From Deltaproteobacteria bacterium (GTDB taxonomy: Bacteria > Myxococcota_A > JAADFL01): a stretch of 18,571 nt of DNA. How positions within the stretch are numbered: position 1 is the first letter of the stretch; every line of letters starts with the position of its first letter. The notes beneath the pieces were generated by a model. It had not been told where the DNA came from. It did not search any database and saw only the letters and a list, made by a program, of their open reading frames with translations. The stretch is taken from positions 1 to 18,571 of the forward strand of contig JAADFL010000013.1 of NCBI GenBank assembly GCA_013152945.1. The letters run 5' to 3'. Below, piece by piece: positions 2,175-15,316 of the stretch. Made by a program: the position numbers and the translations under genes.

Positions 2175-2612
2175 ATGAGCAGTTCGAAATGGGACCCGTT
2201 CAAGGACTTGATGGCGCTCAAAGACAGGATGAACCGTCTCTTTGACATGAGTTTGTCCCGGGAACTGGAACTTGCAACAGGTGCAGGTGCCGGGACATGG
2301 GCGCCTACATGTGATGTCATGGAAACAGAAGAGGGATTGCTGATACAGGCCGAGCTTCCGGGCTTGTCCGAGGGCGATTACGAGGTCCTGCTGGATGGCG
2401 GTGAAGTTGTAATACGCGGTGATCGAAAGCTGCACAAGTCAAAGCCCAAGCAAGGTGCCATCTTCCGTCTTGACGGAAGGTACGGGACCTTCAGACGGGC
2501 CTTCACCCTTCCGGATTGGGCCGATGAGGCGCAGGAGAACATAAAGGCGAATTACAGCGATGGGGTTCTGGAAGTAAAGATCGGCAGGGCGAAAAATCGG
2601 GACTCCGACTAG
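2175..2612 (+). CDS. Small heat-shock protein, Hsp20/alpha-crystallin family
   Basis: A 145-residue ATP-independent holdase chaperone. Residues 1-40 form a short N-terminal arm (WDPFKDLMALKDRMNRLF) typical of bacterial Hsp20, and residues about 43-138 the alpha-crystallin domain, with the AELPGLSEGDYEV strand-loop and the closing GVLEVKI strand. AAGGAG upstream of the ATG is a clear ribosome binding site. After the domain only GRAKNRDSD remains, and the I-x-I/V oligomerisation motif usual in this family is not obvious. A TTGACA lies at 2120-2125, but its spacing to an AT-rich -10 is not convincing, and no HspR-type inverted repeat was seen. The gene leads a three-gene operon with cbpA- and cbpM-like genes, 7 bases from the next start. 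Confidence 0.93.
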   Translation: MSSSKWDPFKDLMALKDRMNRLFDMSLSRELELATGAGAGTWAPTCDVMETEEGLLIQAELPGLSEGDYEVLLDGGEVVIRGDRKLHKSKPKQGAIFRLDGRYGTFRRAFTLPDWADEAQENIKANYSDGVLEVKIGRAKNRDSD

Positions 2613-2619
2613 GTGCCGG

Positions 2620-3573
2620 ATGAAAAAACGAGACTATTACGAAGTTTTGGGCATTCCAAGGAATGCGGATGAAAAGAAGATAAAATCCGCTTTCAGGAAA
2701 CTTGCAAGGAAATTCCATCCGGACGTAAATCCCGGGGACAAGGCTGCCGAAGAGAAATTCAAGGAGATACAGGAAGCCCATGATGTCCTGTCGGACAAGA
2801 AGAAACGAAAACTTTACGACCAATTCGGTCACCAAGGCGTGTCACCCGGGTTTGATGCCGAGGCAGCCGAGAGGATGAGGAGGCAATGGTCCGCAAGTGG
2901 TGGGGGCGGTATCCCGTTCGATTTCGGAGATGCTTTCCGGTATCGGACCGGTGGTCCCGGAGCAGGCTTTGACTTCAACAATCTCGGAGACCTGTTCGGC
3001 TCGGTATTTGGCAGGCACAAGGGTCCTATGAAAGGGCAGGACCTTTCGACCAAGGTGGAAATAGGCTTCAGGGAGGCGCTTAAAGGCACCGAGGTAAGAT
3101 TGAGGATCGAGAGCCGGGGCAGGCCGAGAAACCTGACCGTTAAGATACCTCCCGGAGTAAAGACCGGAACAAGGGTGAGAGTGGCGGGAAAAGGGGCGCC
3201 GGGACGGGCCGGGGGGCAGCCTGGTGACTTGTACGTCGAGACCGTTGTAAGGGATGATCCATTGTTCAAAAGGGACGGGGACGATCTTTACTGCGAAATA
3301 CCCATTACCTTTTCCGAGGCGGTTCTTGGTACCAAGATGGAAGTACCGACTCCGTACGGTCCGGTTCAGCTCAAGGTGCCGGCAGGAACGAACAGCGGGA
3401 GAAAGTTCAGGCTCAAGGGAAAAGGGGCACCCAGGCTGAAGGGTAGCGGCAAGGGTGATCTATATATCCGGGTCATGGTCCTGGTTCCGAAAGATCTCGA
3501 CGACCGGGCACGTGAAATGGTCAGGGAACTTTCAAAGTTCGAAAAAAAGAATCCAAGGCGAGGTATTTCTTGA
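2620..3573 (+). CDS. cbpA: DnaJ-family co-chaperone, CbpA type (no zinc finger)
   Basis: A 317-residue J-domain protein that would stimulate the ATPase of DnaK and deliver clients. The J domain occupies residues 5-70 with the HPD motif at 33-35 and the YDQFGHQG end. A Gly/Phe-rich linker follows (about 88-130), then the two DnaJ C-terminal substrate-binding beta-domains (about 140-310; GVKTGTRVRVAGKG and VPAGTNSGRKFRLKGKG). The CxxCxGxG zinc-finger repeats of true DnaJ are absent, which makes it CbpA/DnaJ type II. It starts 7 bases after hsp20, and its stop codon overlaps the TTG start of the next gene, so the three genes are probably co-transcribed. Confidence 0.93.
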   Translation: MKKRDYYEVLGIPRNADEKKIKSAFRKLARKFHPDVNPGDKAAEEKFKEIQEAHDVLSDKKKRKLYDQFGHQGVSPGFDAEAAERMRRQWSASGGGGIPFDFGDAFRYRTGGPGAGFDFNNLGDLFGSVFGRHKGPMKGQDLSTKVEIGFREALKGTEVRLRIESRGRPRNLTVKIPPGVKTGTRVRVAGKGAPGRAGGQPGDLYVETVVRDDPLFKRDGDDLYCEIPITFSEAVLGTKMEVPTPYGPVQLKVPAGTNSGRKFRLKGKGAPRLKGSGKGDLYIRVMVLVPKDLDDRAREMVRELSKFEKKNPRRGIS

Positions 3574-4363: not shown

Positions 4364-6298
4364 ATGACCAGGAGAACCGCCTTCATGTTTGCATCCGTCT
4401 GTTCGGTCGTGTTCGCAGCCTGCGGCCCTGGACCCGGCGCCGACGTGTCGTCCACGAGGCGCGCGGCGCTGAACAGCATCCAGTACGACGGTACAGGCAT
4501 ACACAGCATCGTATGGAACGGAGTAAACATACTGGAGGGTGTAGGTGGTTACTATGTCATCGGCTCGTGCACGGGAGCGGACTCGGAGGACCAGAATGTC
4601 ATCTCCCTGGGGAGCGACGGCAAGACGCTCCATGCCCCTGGAGTATGTCCTGGTGCACCCTTCAGCATACAGCTCACCGGAAACAACCCGGTGCACGCCA
4701 AGATAACCGTTGGTCCCCTTCCGGTGGACTACCGGTCCTTGAGCGTGCCCTTCGATCCAACCATGGCGTACTTCGACAGGTTCAGGATAAGCTCGAGCGG
4801 TTACCTGGTGGGATGCGCCAACACCTGGTCGCCCAGAAGCGGCTCGGGCGGTCCCTTTTCGGACATTCCCCAGCCATGCACAATACCGGGCCACGGTGCA
4901 GTGGGTGTAGCAAGGGTAACAAAGGTAGGACCTGGATGGTGGGGCGAGATCTCCGGCAGCGTGGTGACCGTCAGGCGGACGATAGTCGGAGGCAACATCA
5001 AGGAAGGAGTGTTTATAAACCACCCGTACACGCACAACATGGAGCTCTCTTTCCAGGTCGAACCGGTGAGTCAGCATATACTGCCCAAGGGCAGCACGTA
5101 CACACTGGAGGAGGATATCTCGTTCAGGGACCCAGGCGACGAGCCGACAGAGGACGCAGAGTTCGTCTCCGCGGACATACCCGATAAGGTATCCGCACGC
5201 AGCGAGGTCGAGGTCAACGTGACCATGCGGAACTCGGGAGAGACCACCTGGACCGAGCCTGCCGATCACATGGGAGGCACCCGCCTGGGCAGCCTTGCGG
5301 ATAACCAGTTCGTCTGGATACCAGGAGCTGCCGGGGGATACCGGAACAACCCGGGTGACCAGAGGCTGTACCTGGCCTCTTCGGTTGCGCCGGGCCAGGA
5401 GGTGACCTTCACCTTCAAGCTACAGACCCCCGACACCCAGGGCACGTACACCTTTGGAGCAAGGATGGTGCACGACGGCGTGGCATGGTTCGGCCCGGAG
5501 ATCAAGCGCACCATAGAGGTGACCAACGACCCCTGCGGGGGAGGCCCCATCAACGGTTGCGGCGGCTGCGGCACCCTGGATCACTCTCCAGGCGGCTCGT
5601 GCGGTGAGTGCGGGACCTATGTCTGCGACGGCGTGGACGCGGTCAAGTGCGTTGACCCGGGCAAAAACGCCTGCGGCGGGTGCAAGGCATTGAGCGCCTC
5701 GCCGGGTGACGCCTGCGGCACCTGCGGTAAGTACGAGTGCAACGGCCAGGATGCCTTGAGGTGCAACGAGGGTTCCATCAACGGTTGCGGCGGCTGCGGC
5801 ACCCTGGATCACTCTCCCGGCGGTTCGTGCGGCGAGTGCGGGACCTATGTCTGTGACGGCGTGGACGCGGTCAAGTGCGACGACCCGGGCAAAAACGCCT
5901 GTGGCGGGTGCAAGACCCTTGCAGTCTCACCTGGAGACGAGTGTGGTGAGTGTGGGACCTATGTCTGCGACGGCGTGGACGCGGTCAAGTGCGACGATCC
6001 AGGCGCCAACACCTGCGGCGGGTGCACCGGACTGGACCACGATCCAGGCATGCCCTGCGGCACCTGCGGCAAGTACATATGCAAGGGAACAGACGAGGTG
6101 GAGTGCCAGGACCCGGGCCTGAACGAGTGCGGCGAGTGCGGCGACGTGCCGCCGGACGGGTGCGGCTCCGGGGATGATGACGGGTCGTCATCATCCTCTG
6201 GTTGTACCGCGATAGGAGGCGGCGATCTAGCGCTGCCCCTGCTGATCACATTGCTGGCACTGGTCGGGCCGGGACTACGCAGGAGAAACCGCGGATAG
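4364..6298 (+). CDS. Surface lipoprotein with NBR1-type Ig-like domain, Cys/Gly repeats and MYXO-CTERM-like tail
   Basis: A 644-residue exported protein of unknown function. AAGGAGGTG (4349-4358) sits just before the ATG. The signal peptide ends in FAAC (Cys20), a lipobox. Residues about 40-250 form a domain I do not recognise, probably beta-rich. Residues about 264-388 resemble the Ig-like domain first described in NBR1: the GxxRLGS-like turn, V-x-PGQ-x-V-T-F-x-F, GTYTFGARM and DGVAWFG. Residues 397-586 are five tandem 38-residue units, each with six cysteines (N-x-CGGC ... CGxCGxYxC ... C-x-DPG). An acidic Ser-rich spacer follows, then SGCTAIGG, a hydrophobic stretch and RRRNRG. This Cys + membrane helix + Arg-rich end is the layout of MYXO-CTERM sorting tails. 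Lipidation at the N-terminus and anchoring at the C-terminus would be an unusual pair. Likely monocistronic. Confidence 0.85.
   Translation: MTRRTAFMFASVCSVVFAACGPGPGADVSSTRRAALNSIQYDGTGIHSIVWNGVNILEGVGGYYVIGSCTGADSEDQNVISLGSDGKTLHAPGVCPGAPFSIQLTGNNPVHAKITVGPLPVDYRSLSVPFDPTMAYFDRFRISSSGYLVGCANTWSPRSGSGGPFSDIPQPCTIPGHGAVGVARVTKVGPGWWGEISGSVVTVRRTIVGGNIKEGVFINHPYTHNMELSFQVEPVSQHILPKGSTYTLEEDISFRDPGDEPTEDAEFVSADIPDKVSARSEVEVNVTMRNSGETTWTEPADHMGGTRLGSLADNQFVWIPGAAGGYRNNPGDQRLYLASSVAPGQEVTFTFKLQTPDTQGTYTFGARMVHDGVAWFGPEIKRTIEVTNDPCGGGPINGCGGCGTLDHSPGGSCGECGTYVCDGVDAVKCVDPGKNACGGCKALSASPGDACGTCGKYECNGQDALRCNEGSINGCGGCGTLDHSPGGSCGECGTYVCDGVDAVKCDDPGKNACGGCKTLAVSPGDECGECGTYVCDGVDAVKCDDPGANTCGGCTGLDHDPGMPCGTCGKYICKGTDEVECQDPGLNECGECGDVPPDGCGSGDDDGSSSSSGCTAIGGGDLALPLLITLLALVGPGLRRRNRG
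5552..6121 (+). repeat. Five tandem 114-bp (38-codon) Cys/Gly repeats
   Basis: Exact 114-base units start at 5552, 5666, 5780, 5894 and 6008. Units 1 and 3 are nearly identical in DNA (228-base offset), as are the second halves of units 1, 3 and 4, which indicates recent duplication or gene conversion. Each unit encodes six cysteines at unit positions 3, 6, 17, 20, 25 and 33. Confidence 0.9.
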
Positions 6299-6653: not shown

Positions 6654-6673
6654 TCAATGGGCGTCCAGACCGG
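6648..6673. repeat. 26-bp direct repeat, copy 1
   Basis: An exact 26-base match to 14221-14246. Here it covers the last codons and stop of the TPR gene (minus-strand frame GLDAH-stop). Two exact copies 7.6 kb apart are unlikely by chance in a window this size. Confidence 0.8.
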
Positions 6674-7277
6674 ATAGGGCGGACTGGTTCCTTGGGTTGA
6701 TGCGAAGCACCTCCTTGAATAACTTCTTGGCGGCCTTGCTCCTGCCCTGGCGAAGGTATGTCCATGCAAGGCCGAGCTTCATCTCCAGGTTCCCCGGGTA
6801 CAGCGCTAGTATGTCCTTGTACAACCGGGCCGCCTCCGCGTACTTTCCTATCGAGAACTCGGTGAATGCAAGTCGGCTCTTGGCCGTGTAGTTGTTGGAG
6901 TCGAGGCGAAGCGCCTCCTTGCACACGTCCTCGGCTTCCTTCCATTTCTTCGAGGCCACCAGCGGAAGGCTTAGGCCTAGGAGCGGCTCGATGGCCTTTG
7001 GTGCCATGCGAACCGCCCTCCTGTAATGAATGGCCGAATCGGTATGCTTCCCTAGGAGGTAGTACAGCCACCCGGCACGTAGGTTGGCCATGTAGTCATC
7101 GGGTGACTTCCTCAGCACGAGCATGACCTCTTTCAATGCCTTCGAGTAATCTCCCGAGGACTCGTAGTCCAATGATTGGCGAAAGTGCTCAGACACGCCG
7201 CCATCGCCGAGCGAGGCCAAGGGAAAAAGTGAAAAGCACGTGAAAACGACGATGGCACTCGATCTTATTCGATTCAT
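6654..7277 (-). CDS. Secreted TPR protein
   Basis: A 207-residue periplasmic or surface protein built of tetratricopeptide repeats. I chose the ATG at 7277, which follows AGGAGG with good spacing and starts a signal peptide (MNRIRSSAIVVFTCFSLFPL) ending near ASLGDGG; a longer reading frame from 7340 overlaps the upstream gene and lacks a site. Residues about 28-200 hold roughly five TPR units (A-G-W-L-Y-Y-L-L-G, A-F-T-E-F-S-I-G-K-Y, AWTYLRQGRS). It is the last gene of the minus-strand operon, 31 bases after the TPR-barrel gene, and its repeats resemble that protein's TPR half, so it may be a paralogue or soluble partner. TPR arrays mediate protein contacts; there is no enzyme motif. Confidence 0.85.
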   Translation of the reverse strand: MNRIRSSAIVVFTCFSLFPLASLGDGGVSEHFRQSLDYESSGDYSKALKEVMLVLRKSPDDYMANLRAGWLYYLLGKHTDSAIHYRRAVRMAPKAIEPLLGLSLPLVASKKWKEAEDVCKEALRLDSNNYTAKSRLAFTEFSIGKYAEAARLYKDILALYPGNLEMKLGLAWTYLRQGRSKAAKKLFKEVLRINPRNQSALSGLDAH

Positions 7278-7308
7278 TACCCGGTCCTCCTTTTCTTCGT
7301 ATCCGGTC

Positions 7309-8937
7309 CTAGAACCATCCGGCGAGTCCGAACATCCCACCGATCAACGTGAAGGTTTCTTTGCCGTTGAGCCGCCAGTTACACTGCCGGCTGTCGATAC
7401 TACAGGAATCCCGCGTGAACTCGGCCGTGGCTTCGCCGACCTGCCCGTAATCCGCTCTTAGCTCGACCAGGAAGGAAAGGTGGGAGATAACGTCGTACCC
7501 CAGTTGAATCTTTCCTCCGAAAAGCAGCAGGTCGTCTGTGCTGTACAGGGTGTGGCCCCGGTCAGCCACGTAGTAGTAGCGTTCGCCTCCCCAGGCGGAC
7601 AAGGACAGCTTCAAGTCGCTTAATGGCAGCCAGGTGGCGTTCAGCGAGCCGGAAAAGAGGGTCCTTGCCTCGCGAGGCCAAATCGCCGCATCATCCAGGG
7701 GATACCCGGGCAATGGCGCGGGCGAGGGAAGCAGCTCCCATGACCAGACCGAGCGCGCGGGTGGATCGCTGTTGTGCAGCACTGTCAAGGTTCCTCTGAT
7801 CGAAAGCGATTCGGATGGACTCCAGGTCATCGAGGGTTCCACTTGTAACACGCGACCGTCCGGGTAGAAAGACAGCGCTCCCCCGAGGCCCAGGGAGACA
7901 GGACCTATCTCATGTTTCGTCTCCAGCAAGGCCACTTGCAGGTGATTCGTTGTATCGAGGTCTCCGAACACGTGCACGTAACCGGCGAACACTTCACCTC
8001 CTCGCCACAGGTGTAACGAAAACGCAGCCTCGATTTCGTGCTGCATTGCCGAATAATCGTTATGCCAGGTTATCTCCACCATGTTGTATGAGAGGTAGAG
8101 CTCGGCTATTTTGCTGACCGCGCCCTGGCATACCACGGTAGTTGCCCAAAGGAATGCACGGTCGTTGTCAAGCCCGAGGAATCGGCGGTAGGTCCCATAG
8201 ATACCTGCAAGGCCGGAGAACATCGGCGTGGAACGTGCTTTCGCGACTGCCTGGAGCCCCTTGGTGACCCTCGCATCTTTAGGGGCTACAGCGCGGGCGG
8301 CAAGGAAGTAATGCTCGGCTGCATCCAAGCTCTCGTTCCCGCCCAGCATGACACTGGTCCAACCAAGGCCGAGCAGGGCGTTTAGGTCTCCCGGCCTGAG
8401 TTCCAGTGCCTTGTTATAGGCAGAGAGGGCGGCGGCGAGTGATCCTTGCTCGTAAAGGGCCAGTCCGAGCCTGACCCAGGCCCAGTACGAAAGGGGGTCT
8501 TCCTCGATTACTTCATTGCAGACCTTCTCCACTTCATGCCAGCGGCCATCCCCTATCAAGGGGAGCGTGAGGCCGAGCTTGGCTTTCTCGGATTCGGGCT
8601 GAAACTCGAGGGCTTTACGGTATGCCCTGGCGGCTGATTCGTTGTCTTTAAGGCGATAGTACAACCAGCCTGTCTTGAGCATTAGATCGAAGCTTGGCCC
8701 GGTACGGCTGACTGCACGTTTTAACACGGAGAGCGCTTCCTCGAGGCGACCCTTGGACTCCAGCGCGTTGGCGATGGATAACGGGCTTTCGGGGGCGCCC
8801 CGTTCCCCTGGAGGCACGGTTTTTTCGGTTACACGGCCACCGCTTCCTGCCGTCACCGTACTCGATTCAGCGACGGCAGGGCAGGCGGCAACGAGCGCCA
8901 GGAGAAAGGATATCCCTGTACCGCGGGGCTTGGTCAA
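7309..8937 (-). CDS. TPR protein with C-terminal outer-membrane beta-barrel
   Basis: 542 residues. The TTG start at 8937 overlaps the stop of the upstream gene (TTGA) and has GGAGGA about nine bases before it; no closer ATG gives a signal peptide. Residues 1-24 are a signal peptide (ISFLLALVAACPAVA). Residues about 50-235 contain about five TPR units. From about 250 to the end, alternating hydrophobic/polar strands with many aromatic residues end in GLAGWF, the terminal Phe typical of outer-membrane barrels. TPR-plus-barrel architecture is known from polysaccharide or peptide exporters (for example PelB, BcsC) and from YaiO-like proteins. It is much shorter than BcsC, so the barrel would be small to medium. 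In this operon it could be the outer-membrane exit or receptor for the product; that is inference. Confidence 0.82.
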   Translation of the reverse strand: MTKPRGTGISFLLALVAACPAVAESSTVTAGSGGRVTEKTVPPGERGAPESPLSIANALESKGRLEEALSVLKRAVSRTGPSFDLMLKTGWLYYRLKDNESAARAYRKALEFQPESEKAKLGLTLPLIGDGRWHEVEKVCNEVIEEDPLSYWAWVRLGLALYEQGSLAAALSAYNKALELRPGDLNALLGLGWTSVMLGGNESLDAAEHYFLAARAVAPKDARVTKGLQAVAKARSTPMFSGLAGIYGTYRRFLGLDNDRAFLWATTVVCQGAVSKIAELYLSYNMVEITWHNDYSAMQHEIEAAFSLHLWRGGEVFAGYVHVFGDLDTTNHLQVALLETKHEIGPVSLGLGGALSFYPDGRVLQVEPSMTWSPSESLSIRGTLTVLHNSDPPARSVWSWELLPSPAPLPGYPLDDAAIWPREARTLFSGSLNATWLPLSDLKLSLSAWGGERYYYVADRGHTLYSTDDLLLFGGKIQLGYDVISHLSFLVELRADYGQVGEATAEFTRDSCSIDSRQCNWRLNGKETFTLIGGMFGLAGWF

Positions 8938-11138
8938 TTTTCGGGCTCCTCCGTAAGGATTTGCTCTACCATGGTCTTTTGCCCGGAGGGACTGTCGAGG
9001 GAGAGCCTGGCCGGGCCGAGCGTCTTGTCCAGGTGCAGCACGGCCTTCCAGGTTTTACCACGGCCTCCCAGCCGGAGCCTGCTCGTGACCTCCACGTGGA
9101 CCGGCATGACGTCCATCGAGAGGCCGGCGATCTCGATTCGTTCCAGGGGACCGAAAGATCCATGTGCCTCGACCCGAAACGGGTCTGTGAATGGAAGGGC
9201 CATGTCCCTGAAAATCCTGGCCATGGGTCCGAGGAACAGGGAAGTGGCAGGTCGATCCTTCCACGTAAGCGCCGGGTCCCTGTCCAGCGGGATCTTGGTT
9301 GCTGCTACGAACAGGGCATAGAGGCCCGAGTGCCTGCTTCCCTCGAAAGAGAGGCTCCAAAACGAGTCGGACGTGATGGAGAAGTAAAGCCTGTCCCCCA
9401 GGGGGCGTGACTCCAGGAACGTTCTGCCGAGCAGGTCGGTCTCGACACACCATTCCTCCACGGTCTCACTGCCGGCGCTCCTGACCTTGAACTTGAACGT
9501 TCGTCCTGTTGCCAGGTCGAGCCCTCCTTTAAGAATGTCGTTCGTATCGATTCGCCGCAGGGCGGTGCCCTCTTCCGGTACCCCACGCGGGATCAGCTCT
9601 GGCCCATCCGGTGTCACCTTGACCCATTCGGCCACCTCGAAGTAAGTGGTGGTGCCCCCGGCTGTTGCCGAGTGCTGTACCTGCACGTGCAGGTGGGGTT
9701 GGGGAGACCGGCCGGAACTGCCGCAGGATGCAATGCCCTGTCCGCGTCTCACCCGGTCGCCGGGCTTGACCTTGATAGAGCCTGCCCGGAGGTGACAGAG
9801 TGTTACGTGCAGGTCCCCGTACAGCCATATGGTTACGAGGTTGCCCCAGTTCTGCTCCGTGTTTATCTCGCCGACCGGGTTGTCAGGCACACCGTCCTTG
9901 ACCGCTGATACCACGCCGTCTACCGGGGAGAGGATCGGCAGGTTGTAGGCATGGTAGTCCTCGACGTGTAGGCCGTTTCCCGAGTAGGGCTTGCCCGATG
10001 CATCCATCACCTCGAGGTCCAGGCCGTGACGCCATTGGCCCTTGTGGGTGATCTTGCCGTCAAACCCCTGTGTAACCGTCCATGTTCCCCTTACGGGCAG
10101 CTCTATCCGGGGCACGCCGTCGGCAGGTACCCGGGCAGTCCTGGCGTTTACGGCCCGCAGGTTGTCCTCGACCCGGCCGGGAGCAAAGTCCACCGGCCTG
10201 ACAGCGCCGGTGCCGCCTTTCAGCTTCAAGCTGTAAAGAGAAACGAGCACTGCGATGTTGAACGGTGCGGCCAGCACGGGCAAGTCCAGGGGCGAAAGAC
10301 ATGCCCGGCAGGCTGCGGTCAAGAGGGCTGCCCCGGCCGCTGCAAAGGCTGCGAATATTATCGAACGCCAGGACATTACCACCCACACGCCGCCTAGCGC
10401 TATAGATGTGAGCAGGAAGTTGAAGCCGAGGTAGGATCTCGATATATCGGTCACGGGGCCGCCGACCAGGCTGTACAGACCGTTACCCGCCGAGTAGCCC
10501 ACTATTGCGAGCAATAGTGTCAGTGGTGAGTAAAACAGGAGACCCAGGAACACGATGATACCGGACAGCAGGTTCACCTGGAAGAAGACCGCTCCAAGGG
10601 ACCGGAGAAAGGTGGAGATGTAAGCTGGTACCGGGAGGGAGTCCGCCCAACGTGCGGCGAGCATCGGGCCGAGCGTAATCTCGAGGTTTGAGAACCCCTT
10701 TGCCGCGAGAAGTGCCGATAATGTTACGAGCACAAAGGGAACGGAGAGAAATGGGAGACCCAGGTGGTCCCCCAGGAACCCCCGGCAGGCAAATGCCACC
10801 AGGGTCGAGCCCGATGCGGCGAGCACGAGGATTGCCATTGCCGGGAGGTCGGGCTTGTACATCAATCCCAGGGCAAGGCCTACCAGGAGGCCGTTGAAGC
10901 CGTACTCTCCACGCCGGATCGCATCCCGCGGGGCTTGCAGGAGAAGCGCCGTGGCAGTGGCGGCGATACAGCCCGTCAGCCCGATGAATCCTTGCCTTGG
11001 CTCGACGAAGGTTGCCGCGGCGAATACGGCGCCCGCCCATGAGCTATGTGCGAACAAGGGTTGTGCATATGCGCGGAGCAATGCCTCGATCCACAGACCG
11101 GGCATGCCCCTTGGAATGCTCGATTCATTGTCAGGCAT
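8934..11138 (-). CDS. Urea-transporter-family channel fused to M23 metallopeptidase
   Basis: 734 residues in three parts. Residues about 18-305 match the urea transporter family (UT/SLC14): the two internal halves carry GFNGLLVGLALG (80-91) and GFNFLLTSIALGG (238-250), and the paired pore segments read LPFLSVPF and LPVLAAPF. Residues about 350-500 are an M23 (LytM-like) domain: the first Zn-ligand motif reads RHGLDLEV (His371, Asp374, an HxxD spacing rather than HxxxD), then CHL (His449) and PHLHVQV (His482, His484). Residues about 520-734 are an unrecognised beta-rich domain. M23 enzymes cut peptidoglycan cross-bridges outside the cytoplasm, whereas known urea channels have both ends in the cytoplasm, so topology is an open question. 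It sits between the decarboxylase gene (35-base gap) and the TPR-barrel gene (4-base overlap). Substrate need not be urea; no urease genes are near. Confidence 0.85.
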   Translation of the reverse strand: MPDNESSIPRGMPGLWIEALLRAYAQPLFAHSSWAGAVFAAATFVEPRQGFIGLTGCIAATATALLLQAPRDAIRRGEYGFNGLLVGLALGLMYKPDLPAMAILVLAASGSTLVAFACRGFLGDHLGLPFLSVPFVLVTLSALLAAKGFSNLEITLGPMLAARWADSLPVPAYISTFLRSLGAVFFQVNLLSGIIVFLGLLFYSPLTLLLAIVGYSAGNGLYSLVGGPVTDISRSYLGFNFLLTSIALGGVWVVMSWRSIIFAAFAAAGAALLTAACRACLSPLDLPVLAAPFNIAVLVSLYSLKLKGGTGAVRPVDFAPGRVEDNLRAVNARTARVPADGVPRIELPVRGTWTVTQGFDGKITHKGQWRHGLDLEVMDASGKPYSGNGLHVEDYHAYNLPILSPVDGVVSAVKDGVPDNPVGEINTEQNWGNLVTIWLYGDLHVTLCHLRAGSIKVKPGDRVRRGQGIASCGSSGRSPQPHLHVQVQHSATAGGTTTYFEVAEWVKVTPDGPELIPRGVPEEGTALRRIDTNDILKGGLDLATGRTFKFKVRSAGSETVEEWCVETDLLGRTFLESRPLGDRLYFSITSDSFWSLSFEGSRHSGLYALFVAATKIPLDRDPALTWKDRPATSLFLGPMARIFRDMALPFTDPFRVEAHGSFGPLERIEIAGLSMDVMPVHVEVTSRLRLGGRGKTWKAVLHLDKTLGPARLSLDSPSGQKTMVEQILTEEPEN

Positions 11139-11173
11139 CTTGGTTCACCGGGCGCCGTGGGTGGCCTGTCCAG

Positions 11174-12580
11174 CTAGGTCCCTCCATGGTATTGACCCTC
11201 GAGGCTCAACCTTGGCGGCAGCTTTTCCCGCCTTAGTATGTCGGAAAGGTCCTCGGCCTCCCGTATCAGCTCCACCTCGCCTCCCAGGCCGATTAGAACT
11301 ACGGGCGGCCTCGACCTGATGAACTGCATCCACTGCGTGACATTGTAGGCGCCCACGGGGCGTATTACCACCCTGTCACCCGTGGACAGGGAAGGGAGAT
11401 TAATCTCCGGGCGTATGATGTCTATGTTCATGCAAAGGGGGCCGTACACGGCCGCCGGCTCGTTGAACGGATCGTGCTCCTGGGCAGGAATAACTTGGTG
11501 GTTGTACCAGAAAGACGTAAAGAGGGTGTTTACCCCTGCATCCAGTATGATTGCCCTAAGCCCGTTGGGCAGGCGCTTGTTGGCAATTACAGTGGAGACG
11601 AGATAGCCGGACTCGTCCACGATCGCACGGCCGGTCTCCAGCACCAGCCTGGGTGGATCTTCCGCGGGTAGGCCGGATTGCGCAAGGCCCACGGAGACCG
11701 CCTCTGCGTACCGGTCGAAGTCGGGGTTCACGGATTCTCCCGTGAAGTACTGGCCCTTTAAGGTGTTCGTGGACGTGAAGCCTCCTCCCATGTCCAGGTA
11801 TTCGATCTTTACACCGTACTCCTTCTCTATCTGGAGGGCAAAGGAGCCGAGCTTTAGCGCGGTGACACGGTACGCATCGGGTTCCAGGATGAACGTGCCG
11901 ATGTGGCAATGGAGCCCCACCAGGTTTAGCTTGCCTCCCCCTACTATGCGCCTGACAGCGGCCAGGGCCTGGCCGCTTTCGAGGTTGAAGCCGAAACGTC
12001 CCCATTGCGGCTGTATCCCGGCGTCCAGGTTGATCCTGATAGCTATCTCGGGCTTCTTGTCGAGACGCGACGCAATGCCTTCCAGCTCGTGCACCTCGTC
12101 CAGGTGATCCACGTGTATTTTGGCCCCGTCCCTGGCCGCACGCTCCAGTGCAGGGACTGGTTTGTACGGCCCGTTAAAGTAGATCTTGTTACCGGGTACT
12201 CCAAGCCGGCGGGCCTTCTCGTACTCCAACTCGGAAACGACCTCTGCCGCGGCTCCTTCGCGGTGGAGAATTGCGCATATTGCATCCAGGTAGTTCGTCT
12301 TGTAAGACCAAGCCAGCTCAACATGTGGATGCCTCGTGGTGAAGGCCCTGGAGGCATCGCGGTACTTGCGCGCCAGGTCCGCCTCGCTGAACACGAACAG
12401 TGGTGACCCGTGGGCGGCCACGAGCTCCGAGACTGGTACGCCGGCTATGTGCGTCATGGGCTTCCTGGATGCGGGCGCTCCGAACTTGTTCATGAGCCCG
12501 GTCACGTGGCGTGCTATCTCGGGGCGCTCGTACCTTTCTTTGACTTCGACTTCGACTTCGTCTTTTCCGTCTTGGCTCAT
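11174..12580 (-). CDS. PLP-dependent amino-acid decarboxylase, LysA/ornithine-decarboxylase fold-III family
   Basis: 468 residues from the ATG at 12580, which lies 10 bases after AAGGAG; a TTG three codons earlier is too close to that site. The alanine-racemase-like barrel carries the PLP lysine in SYKTNY (Lys94), HCHIGT (224-229), the phosphate-binding GGGF (265-268) and ETGR (315-318). The C-terminal beta domain carries YGPLCMNID (Cys383, Asp387), matching the C-x(3)-D active-site motif of diaminopimelate and ornithine decarboxylases, and VGAYNVTQW. It would decarboxylate a D- or L-amino acid or an amino-acid conjugate. An extra charged N-terminal arm of about 40 residues, the company of ATP-grasp and PqqD-like genes and the lack of lysine-pathway genes suggest specialised metabolism rather than housekeeping lysA. 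Substrate unknown. Confidence 0.87.
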   Translation of the reverse strand: MSQDGKDEVEVEVKERYERPEIARHVTGLMNKFGAPASRKPMTHIAGVPVSELVAAHGSPLFVFSEADLARKYRDASRAFTTRHPHVELAWSYKTNYLDAICAILHREGAAAEVVSELEYEKARRLGVPGNKIYFNGPYKPVPALERAARDGAKIHVDHLDEVHELEGIASRLDKKPEIAIRINLDAGIQPQWGRFGFNLESGQALAAVRRIVGGGKLNLVGLHCHIGTFILEPDAYRVTALKLGSFALQIEKEYGVKIEYLDMGGGFTSTNTLKGQYFTGESVNPDFDRYAEAVSVGLAQSGLPAEDPPRLVLETGRAIVDESGYLVSTVIANKRLPNGLRAIILDAGVNTLFTSFWYNHQVIPAQEHDPFNEPAAVYGPLCMNIDIIRPEINLPSLSTGDRVVIRPVGAYNVTQWMQFIRSRPPVVLIGLGGEVELIREAEDLSDILRREKLPPRLSLEGQYHGGT

Positions 12581-12610
12581 CTTCAGCAATCTCCTTCCGA
12601 CAGCGTACGG

Positions 12611-13687
12611 CTATTCGCGGTGTACCTCTCCGGCAGTGCTCAACGCCTCGAGGTCATATAGGGGACGGACGAGATCCAGGGAATGACGCACGAACATTAC
12701 TCCCACGTCATATCTATCGAACGGCTCGACGTTTTCTCCAAGGGCCAGACTGGCACATGCATGGGGGAGATTGGCGCCCGCGCCCGCGGCAAGGTAGCAC
12801 CAGGCGGGAAACCTCGGGTTGATCTCCAGGAGGAAGTAGTCGCCCGAGCGGGCCGTCTTCATGACCTCGAGTTCCAATGGCCCGCGCCAAGACAGTGCAC
12901 GCACGGCCTTCTCCGTCAGCTCCTTGAGCTTTGGGTCACCCACGGTTATTCCGGCCCATGCCTTCCCCTTTTCCGTGAGCACGGTTTTACGCATGGGCAC
13001 GGCTCCCACCAGGCCCCCATTGCCATCTCCGAGGGCAACCACGTCGTACTCTTCACCAACCAGGAACTCCTGCACCACGACGGGCAATCCCCATGCTGCA
13101 GCGATCTTGTTGAAGTACATGGCTGCCTCGGGCTGGGTCCTGGCCACGTACGCATCGTAAAATTGGCCCTTTACCATCAGCGGGTAGGAGTAGGCCCCGG
13201 ATGCTACGAGCCGGTTGAGCTCGTTCAGGTCGGTAATCGGCGTGCTTCTAGGCACGGCTATGTCGAAGCGCTGGGCCAGCTTGTCGAACTCGACCTTGCT
13301 CCTGAGCTTTAATTGTTCTTCTGTAGGAAGGAACGTGCCTATGCCGAGCTTTTCGAGCTTGGGCACGAGTCTCACGTAGGGAAAGAGCTCGGCGTCCAGG
13401 GTGGGAACGATGGCATCGAGGTGCACGCGGGAGTGGATGTAGGAGAGCCGCTCGAAAAGTATATCGTCTCCCTGGGACGGGTACGGCACCATGAACACGT
13501 GATCTGCAATGCCGTCCATGTAGATCCCGGGGTCCATGACGTCATATGCAAGCCCGACCACCTCCAGGCTTTCTCCCATGGCGAGCCTAAGTGCCCTGAT
13601 GACCGGAACGCCGGGGCCCGGGTTGTCTGTTGCGTTGAGGCCACTCACCGCGATGGTGACCTTGCCCTTGCCGTCCTTGCTGCTCAT
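12611..13687 (-). CDS. ATP-grasp ligase (CarB-like)
   Basis: 358 residues. An N-terminal pre-ATP-grasp region begins VTIAVSGLNATDNPGPGVPVIRAL; the ATP-grasp core spans about 125-300 with KFDK-like SKVEFDKLA, the ATP-binding Lys in YPLMVKG (about 173), VVQEFLVGEEYDV (206-216) and the Mg-binding LLEINPR (286-292). This family joins a carboxylate, activated as acyl phosphate, to an amine or other nucleophile. It resembles carbamoyl-phosphate-synthase-like ATP-grasp proteins of unknown function rather than a named ligase. The ATG at 13687 lies three bases after the PqqD-like stop, and the decarboxylase starts about 30 bases downstream, so the three are almost surely co-transcribed. A role in making an amide-linked amino-acid product, then processed by the decarboxylase, is inference. 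Confidence 0.87.
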   Translation of the reverse strand: MSSKDGKGKVTIAVSGLNATDNPGPGVPVIRALRLAMGESLEVVGLAYDVMDPGIYMDGIADHVFMVPYPSQGDDILFERLSYIHSRVHLDAIVPTLDAELFPYVRLVPKLEKLGIGTFLPTEEQLKLRSKVEFDKLAQRFDIAVPRSTPITDLNELNRLVASGAYSYPLMVKGQFYDAYVARTQPEAAMYFNKIAAAWGLPVVVQEFLVGEEYDVVALGDGNGGLVGAVPMRKTVLTEKGKAWAGITVGDPKLKELTEKAVRALSWRGPLELEVMKTARSGDYFLLEINPRFPAWCYLAAGAGANLPHACASLALGENVEPFDRYDVGVMFVRHSLDLVRPLYDLEALSTAGEVHRE

Positions 13688-13690
13688 GGC

Positions 13691-13949
13691 CTACTCACCG
13701 AGGAGGCCGAGATCGGCCAGCCTGTCCATGAAGTCCGCGAGATCGTGCTTGGCGGTATCCTCCTCCACGTCGAAACGGGAGCAGATCTTCTCGACGATTT
13801 CCCTGTCATCCAGCCCCTCGACCAACGAGGCGCAGGATCACCAACCCGGTGCGATTGAGGGTGAACGTATGGCCGCTTGCAGGGTCGAAGGCAAAGCCGC
13901 TTTCGTTGACTGCCAGACTGGAGAGACGCTTACGTGCCTGCTCGTTCAT
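13691..13949 (-). pseudogene. PqqD-like (RRE-fold) protein gene broken by a frameshift
   Basis: GGAGGT precedes an ATG at 13949. The first frame encodes MNEQARKRLSSLAVNESGF, then FDPASGHTFTLNRTGLVILRLV, and stops at 13806 after 47 codons. The remaining PqqD sequence continues in another frame: EGLDDREIVEKICSRFDVEE, then DTAKHDLADFMDRLADLGLL, stopping at 13691. The whole length, 259 bases, is one base more than a clean 85-residue gene, so the fault is a net gain of one base between about 13812 and 13830. PqqD-family proteins (about 80-95 residues) bind precursor peptides or partner enzymes and are the basis of the RiPP recognition element. It is the first gene of the operon. An assembly or sequencing error is as likely as real decay. 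Confidence 0.78.
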
Positions 13950-14851: not shown

Positions 14852-15316
14852 ATGTGCGTGTTGGAATACGAGGCATTGGCCGAGTCAGCTCTAAAGCTGC
14901 TCGAGACAGGTGGAGGTGGGCATACGGCCATGCAAGCCATGTGCAGGATGCTAAAGGAGCGGGTGCCCCATTATCACTGGGTCGGCCTTTACCTAACGTC
15001 CAGGGAAACGCCGGGCCTGCTAGAGCTCGGGCCGTTTGCAGGTGAACCCACCGAGCATGTCGCAATCCCCTTTGGCAAGGGCGTGTGCGGGAGCGCTGTA
15101 GAGAGCGGCAGTACTATAGTGGTGGACGATGTGACCCATGAGGACAACTACCTGGCCTGCAGCCTGGAGGTCAGCTCCGAGATCGTGGTGCCGATCATCA
15201 AGAACGGGAAGGTCCTGGGCGAGATAGACATCGACTCCCATGACCCTGCGGCCTTTTCCGAGAAGGATAGGAGGTTGCTGGAGAAGATCGCCAGGAAGCT
15301 GGCCGGGCTACTCTGA
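14852..15316 (+). CDS. GAF-domain protein, free methionine-R-sulfoxide reductase-like
   Basis: 154 residues, almost all one GAF domain. GAGGAGGT lies about nine bases before the ATG. It shares with fRMsr (MsrC/YebR) the HYHWVGLYL strand, IPFGKGVCGSAV, the DNYLACS motif, SSEIVVPI and GEIDIDS. fRMsr reduces free methionine-R-sulfoxide using three cysteines; two are present here (GVCG and LACS), but the first, normally in A-C-x-x-I just before the IPFG strand, appears as His in TEHVAI. Loss of this residue may mean altered resolving chemistry or a ligand-binding role. Single gene, not part of the operon. Confidence 0.83.
   Translation: MCVLEYEALAESALKLLETGGGGHTAMQAMCRMLKERVPHYHWVGLYLTSRETPGLLELGPFAGEPTEHVAIPFGKGVCGSAVESGSTIVVDDVTHEDNYLACSLEVSSEIVVPIIKNGKVLGEIDIDSHDPAAFSEKDRRLLEKIARKLAGLL

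Follow-up and report, generated by a model that had tools for sequence, protein, structure and literature searches.

In the amino-group carrier system of LysW, LysX, and LysK, an ATP-grasp ligation protects the amine, a modification follows, and a metallo-amidohydrolase then releases the product. ATP-grasp ligation is also used in butirosin biosynthesis, where BtrJ loads an amino acid onto a carrier, and PylC, the pyrrolysine ligase, joins two amino acids via a side-chain amine. Conjugated substrates are in turn decarboxylated by the PLP enzymes of the FigC group (FigC, SbnH, AcsE, MccE, and BtrK); BtrK of the butirosin pathway acts on a conjugate, and MccE, a clade-2 decarboxylase, works on a peptide conjugate (PMC7857480). 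FigC/FslC, the N-citrylornithine decarboxylase of the rhizoferrin pathway, acts on an amino-acid conjugate supplied by a ligase, there an NIS synthetase. Here we describe an operon, conserved in several phyla, that encodes an ATP-grasp ligase and a FigC-type decarboxylase next to a urea-channel (UT) domain fused to a hydrolase.

The window, i.e., the whole stretch of DNA analyzed, is 18,571 nucleotides long and is an entire contig (JAADFL010000013.1; G000:C13 in our set) of a 4.8-Mb, 94% complete assembly of a Deltaproteobacteria bacterium. In the order of reading, the features of its operon are as follows:

13691..13949, minus strand: PqqD-like gene (RRE-type small protein); one surplus base interrupts the frame in the assembly
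12611..13687, minus strand: ATP-grasp ligase with a CPSase-like/PylC-like fold, 358 aa; Pfam ATPgrasp_Ter, 5.9e-10
11174..12580, minus strand: fold-III PLP decarboxylase of the FigC/clade-2 type, 468 aa (ATG start); both Orn/DAP/Arg decarboxylase Pfam domains
8934..11138, minus strand: UT/M23 fusion with a C-terminal all-beta domain, 734 aa; Pfam, AlphaFold, Foldseek
10233..11090, minus strand: UT membrane domain of the fusion, residues 17-302; Pfam UT, 7.5e-62
9639..10109, minus strand: M23-type domain of the fusion, residues about 344-500; Pfam M23 at 399-490, 5.9e-12
7309..8937, minus strand: exported TPR protein with a predicted C-terminal beta-barrel-like part, 542 aa, terminal Phe; Pfam TPR matches, signal-like N terminus
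6654..7277, minus strand: exported TPR protein, 207 aa; Pfam TPR matches; last gene of the operon, conserved

For the PLP enzyme, the list of open reading frames starts at a TTG three codons upstream (471 aa), and residues are numbered here from that start. A Pfam search of the window proteins supports the UT, M23, Orn/DAP/Arg decarboxylase, ATPgrasp_Ter, and TPR assignments, and both the TPR and the TPR-barrel proteins begin with signal-like stretches in the window sequence. The initial annotation gave gaps of about 3, 30, 35, -4, and 31 bases between the genes, which is correct, the UT-M23 and TPR-barrel genes overlapping by 4 bases. It also counted six same-strand genes, of which five are intact on the minus strand; the PqqD-like gene is not an intact frame here. 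This gene begins MNEQARKRLSSLAVNESGFAFDPASGHTFTLNRTGLVILR and runs for 47 codons to a stop; the adjacent frame takes up the reading as SLVEGLDDREIVEKICSRFDVEEDTAKHDLADFMDRLADLGLLGE and carries it to the final stop. The surplus base reflects a recent mutation or else an error in the assembly, and the frame is open in nearly all relatives.

Elsewhere in the window, secreted-looking proteins with long Thr-Asp (TDTDTD) linkers are encoded at 82-1548 and 17839-17162, and similar low-complexity repeats recur elsewhere in the phylum (L052, L056). A 644-aa protein with repeated Cys-rich CGGC modules (4364-6298) ends in a hydrophobic stretch and an RRRNRG tail, resembling a MYXO-CTERM-type sorting signal. 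There are also adjacent Hsp20 and DnaJ-type chaperone genes (2175-3573) and a stand-alone GAF protein that resembles free-methionine-(R)-sulfoxide reductase (14852-15316).

The genes were initially proposed to form one operon, and the set is indeed found together and in the same order in related genomes. A profile scan with the ATP-grasp protein over one genome per species confirmed at least 553 relatives, 80 of which were kept. The ATP-grasp, decarboxylase, and channel-peptidase genes co-occur in about 115 loci from several phyla (the 80 named ones plus 34 more in Myxococcota), with the order PqqD, ATP-grasp, PLP, UT-M23, (TPR-barrel), and TPR on one strand in Myxococcota, Bacteroidota including Ignavibacteria/Chlorobi, Elusimicrobiota, and Planctomycetota. 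Within the 80 loci kept from the at least 553, a UT-M23 match spanning both domains follows the PLP gene in 71, the other nine reaching contig ends, and a PqqD-like gene lies close to the ATP-grasp gene in 76. The ligase and decarboxylase genes often overlap by 4 bases across the loci. The TPR-barrel gene has no fixed place: in 56 complete loci it sits between the UT-M23 and TPR genes, in the rest it is elsewhere or unfound, and our search rule left it unmatched in 26 of 92 complete spans.

The distribution over genomes follows the same pattern. Of 296 Bacteroidota genomes, 27 encode the ATP-grasp enzyme, and precisely these encode full-length UT-M23, five further matches being to M23 alone. 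Full-length UT-M23 was found in about 36 of the 377 sampled genomes of the window's own phylum (a phylum that includes named Myxococcota assemblies), and the ATP-grasp gene in 36 of 377, the mismatches between the two sets being contig ends with the exception of one genome, G350. The ATP-grasp gene was further found in 13 of 199 Planctomycetota genomes and 1 of 149 Elusimicrobiota genomes, and the cultured Larkinella knui is a carrier of the operon. This gene clustering is far beyond chance, and the operon is a conserved, so far undescribed gene set present in at least hundreds of copies. The earlier statement that no named pathway has this gene set agrees with the open-licence PMC papers, in which we found nothing on the set or on UT-M23 or UT-sirtuin fusions; older subscription papers on ATP-grasp neighborhoods may mention parts of it. 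Two-component or AraC-type regulators are often encoded upstream, and in nine Bacteroidota loci (including L081, L087, L091, L100, L105, and L122) the upstream regulator is of the AraC type with an N-terminal domain that, by eye, is heavy-metal-associated-like. A role in anti-phage defense was considered and rejected, PADLOC having given only weak TPR matches.

The ATP-grasp protein has both the fold and the intact ExN motif of the carboxylate-amine ligases, with E288, N290, and R292 (ExN.R) invariant in its relatives. Its AlphaFold model (pLDDT 94) best matches 2pn1, an uncharacterised protein (Z 31.4), and biotin carboxylases, GAR synthetases, an L-amino acid ligase, and PylC match at a Z of about 24-26. 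PylC shares the fold (Z 24.7, 16% identity), but no PylB- or PylD-like genes were seen with the operon, and 2pn1 rather than PylC is the nearest structure.

The PLP enzyme has the features of the AR-fold PLP decarboxylase clade 2 (PMC7857480), namely the PLP lysine, the catalytic Cys, the Glu to the pyridine N, and the grouping with FigC, its closest solved relative (profile search, 6.8e-92). In a tree, the operon enzymes form a clade of their own (95/97), joined to FigC (100/100) and apart from LysA; with the Planctomycetota variants added, the position of FigC among the operon enzymes is no longer resolved, and we do not claim a single clade of variants and type I. All 72 operon proteins compared retain the catalytic K/R/H/E/R/C residues (K97, H229, E318, R321, and C386 among those conserved). 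With residue roles taken from the FigC and DAPDC literature (PMC7857480), the substrate-binding Arg that DAPDC has in its specificity helix is replaced by Thr or Ser (Thr358 in the window) and the Glu beside its catalytic Cys by Met, so that the CESxD-type motif of LysA reads Cys-Met-Asn-Ile-Asp in the operon enzyme. As in FigC/FslC, SbnH, and AcsE, Cys-Met stands where ODC and DAPDC have their Asp/Glu motif. The citrate-binding H357 and R387 of FigC, however, are I389 and Q419 in 72 of 72 operon proteins, and the nearby N389 is Met.

Because the enzyme is related to FigC and the FigC group acts on conjugates, its most likely substrate for decarboxylation is an amino acid already joined to another molecule, and the neighboring ligase is the obvious candidate for making the conjugate. 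A direct hint that the two enzymes catalyze consecutive steps comes from G350 (L191, reverse complement of 8131-10854), where the ATP-grasp ligase and the PLP decarboxylase form a single 907-aa ORF after the PqqD gene. No UT fusion was found near that ORF, indicating that the channel is not strictly needed. The operon differs from the FigC/FslC pathway in that the ligase is an ATP-grasp enzyme and in its UT fusion and TPR genes, which that pathway lacks. It differs from the butirosin pathway in that no acyl carrier protein was found with it, the small protein here being PqqD-like, and BtrK is a detectable relative at the superfamily level only.

The UT-M23 fusion was modeled confidently throughout (pLDDT 93), and Foldseek returned dvUT and LytM-type folds, with no match for the C-terminal beta domain. 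By both sequence (PF03253) and fold, the membrane part is a UT domain of the SLC14 urea channels (dvUT, UT-A, UT-B), from which it differs in its fusion to M23 or SIR2, its changed filter positions, and the lack of urease. We compared Gln24, Phe27, Glu187, and Thr294 of dvUT, which we take to be pore-lining positions of urea channels. The UT-M23 family has largely retained Gln24, Phe27, and the first Thr, the last of these as Ser; where dvUT has Glu187 it mostly has Ala, Thr294 gives way to Ser, Val, Ala, or Ile, and the second-half filter Glu/Gln and Thr are lost in nearly all of the 99 members. Urease genes are absent in the organism's own genome, and four relatives gave only short weak matches. 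The loss of two pore-lining positions together with the absence of urease makes urea an unlikely cargo, and urea assimilation was rejected as a function. The M23 domain has H365, D374, H449, H482, and H484 in all 59 sequences compared; the H ... HxH part (H449, H482, H484) is kept, and the first motif is H365-x8-D374, compared with H-x3-D in the family.

In 7 of 199 Planctomycetota genomes (divergent loci L215, L216, L217, L218, L219, L220, and L226), the slot of UT-M23 directly after the PLP gene is always taken by a UT-SIR2 fusion. The variant order is PqqD (in most loci), ATP-grasp, a long exported-looking TPR protein, usually a second ATP-grasp, PLP, and UT-SIR2, the second ATP-grasp gene, where present, being divergent. 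The SIR2 domain is complete (E of 1e-39 to 1e-43; four fusions match Pfam SIR2) and, when aligned to 1ici, shows intact catalytic motifs (GAGxSxxSGIPxxR, TQNxDxLHxxAG, and HG) and the Cys motif. After the UT domain, the linkers of the SIR2 fusions resemble those of the M23 fusions. In an unrooted UT tree, the M23-fused and SIR2-fused groups are separate with free urea channels between them, a topology that fits one fusion origin as well as two.

This exchange bears on the side of the membrane on which the hydrolase works. Sirtuins require NAD+, a cytoplasmic cofactor, so the hydrolase side of UT-SIR2 should be cytoplasmic, and since UT-SIR2 occupies the same slot with a similar linker, the M23 domain would by analogy be cytoplasmic too. 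We consider the hydrolase side of the channel to be probably cytoplasmic, with a considerable chance of the opposite orientation. The initial annotation, which had the peptidase acting at the envelope, is made doubtful by the same comparison. A positive-inside count was uninformative, as the charge patterns of the UT-M23 family and dvUT are alike.

Our tentative main reading, to which we assign a probability of roughly 45%, is that the operon encodes a biosynthesis-and-transport system in which an amide conjugate is made, decarboxylated, cleaved beside the channel, and exported. The ATP-grasp enzyme would join a carboxylate to an amino acid through an amide bond, and this may take place on a peptide or carrier bound by the PqqD-like protein. 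From the conjugated amino acid, the PLP enzyme would then remove the free alpha-carboxylate, like FigC, SbnH, and BtrK. On the cytoplasmic side, the UT-fused hydrolase, whether M23-type or sirtuin, would cut an amide bond in the decarboxylated conjugate, and the resulting small molecule would pass through the UT pore to the periplasm, to be handled there by the exported TPR and TPR-barrel proteins. The side that M23 faces and the direction of transport are the least certain of these steps. The scheme resembles the ligate, modify, and release logic of LysW/LysX/LysK, with the differences that no LysW-like carrier is present in the operon and that the hydrolase is M23 or a sirtuin, in place of an M20 peptidase.

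Other readings assign the same genes to ordinary metabolism, metal acquisition, peptide tailoring, or the cell envelope. The Pfam domain names would suit lysine, polyamine, or urea-nitrogen metabolism, and the window enzyme is the best match to the LysA model in its own genome, in which (94% complete) no LysA exceeds the family cut-off, unlike in most operon carriers. However, every operon copy falls below the cut-off of that model (TIGR01048, 297.9 bits), scoring about 180-232 bits (212.6 in the window), and a separate true LysA exceeds it in 22 of the 36 genomes with the operon; the LysA-model matches of these genomes nearly all have CES or CET where the operon enzymes have CMN. With the changed substrate residues and the separate clade, these results led us to reject lysine/DAP, ornithine, and arginine decarboxylation, and the ligase and decarboxylase stand, as the initial annotation implied, outside the known lysine, polyamine, and carbamoyl-phosphate families. 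With urease absent and the pore residues changed as well, ordinary metabolism is largely refuted and very improbable. The relation to FigC, and the heavy-metal-like domain of the AraC regulators upstream of some Bacteroidota loci, would fit a metallophore made as in rhizoferrin biosynthesis, by decarboxylation of an amino-acid conjugate, and exported to bind metal. We consider this improbable: the citrate-binding residues are lost, and no family resembling an NIS synthetase or a TonB receptor was seen among the conserved neighbors. The window enzyme scores 205.6 bits against the FslC/FigC model (NF041039), whose cut-off is 500 bits.

The small protein clearly belongs to PF05402, matching the Pfam PqqD family in 26 of 26 relatives tested, and many RRE domains fall within that family (PMC12710340). 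It might therefore serve as a RiPP recognition element, delivering a ribosomal precursor whose gene lies elsewhere to the ATP-grasp enzyme and the decarboxylase, a role for which MccE, acting on a peptide conjugate, offers a precedent (PMC7857480); the leader would be cut by M23, with the channel and TPR proteins as accessories. In RiPP clusters with an RRE, a precursor gene is expected nearby, but no conserved short ORF was found in the operon or within 1.8 kb of it in the loci with both ends, and the ribosomal precursor peptide suggested initially thus finds no candidate there. The sirtuin that replaces M23 is, moreover, not a leader peptidase, and we regard RiPP-type tailoring as rather unlikely. 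An envelope system, with M23 in the periplasm (UT N-out/C-out) acting on peptidoglycan or on an exported product and the TPR-barrel protein as an outer-membrane conduit, would account for several features. The nearest free-standing M23 relatives mostly have signal peptides or N-terminal membrane segments, the five zinc- or catalytic-type residues of the domain are invariant, its frequent Cys397 and Cys472 fit a periplasmic M23, and the TPR partners look exported. Against it stand UT-SIR2, with its need for cytoplasmic NAD+ in the same slot, and the known UT channels, both ends of which are in the cytoplasm; an envelope system of this kind is unlikely.

With one gene order in several phyla and at least hundreds of copies, the operon almost certainly yields a useful product, yet its genes have so far been given domain-based names one by one. 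Returning to biosynthesis and transport as the preferred reading, M23 and sirtuin families both break amide bonds, which fits the cleavage of a bond made by the ligase, and their exchange on the same channel domain leads to the hypothesis that this bond is broken again at the membrane. In a stricter form, which is less likely than not, the system would be vectorial and of a kind not described before: a cytoplasmic amide-hydrolase of the UT channel, M23-type in one lineage and a sirtuin in another, would cleave the conjugate made by the ATP-grasp and PLP enzymes at the pore mouth, coupling the release of a small amine or amide to its passage. The sirtuin would then act on a metabolite and not on a protein, and the M23 domain would work in the cytoplasm. 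If the hypothesis is true, which can be tested in a cultured host, sirtuins and M23 domains would reach into small-molecule biosynthesis, and urea-channel homologues would gain a new cargo.
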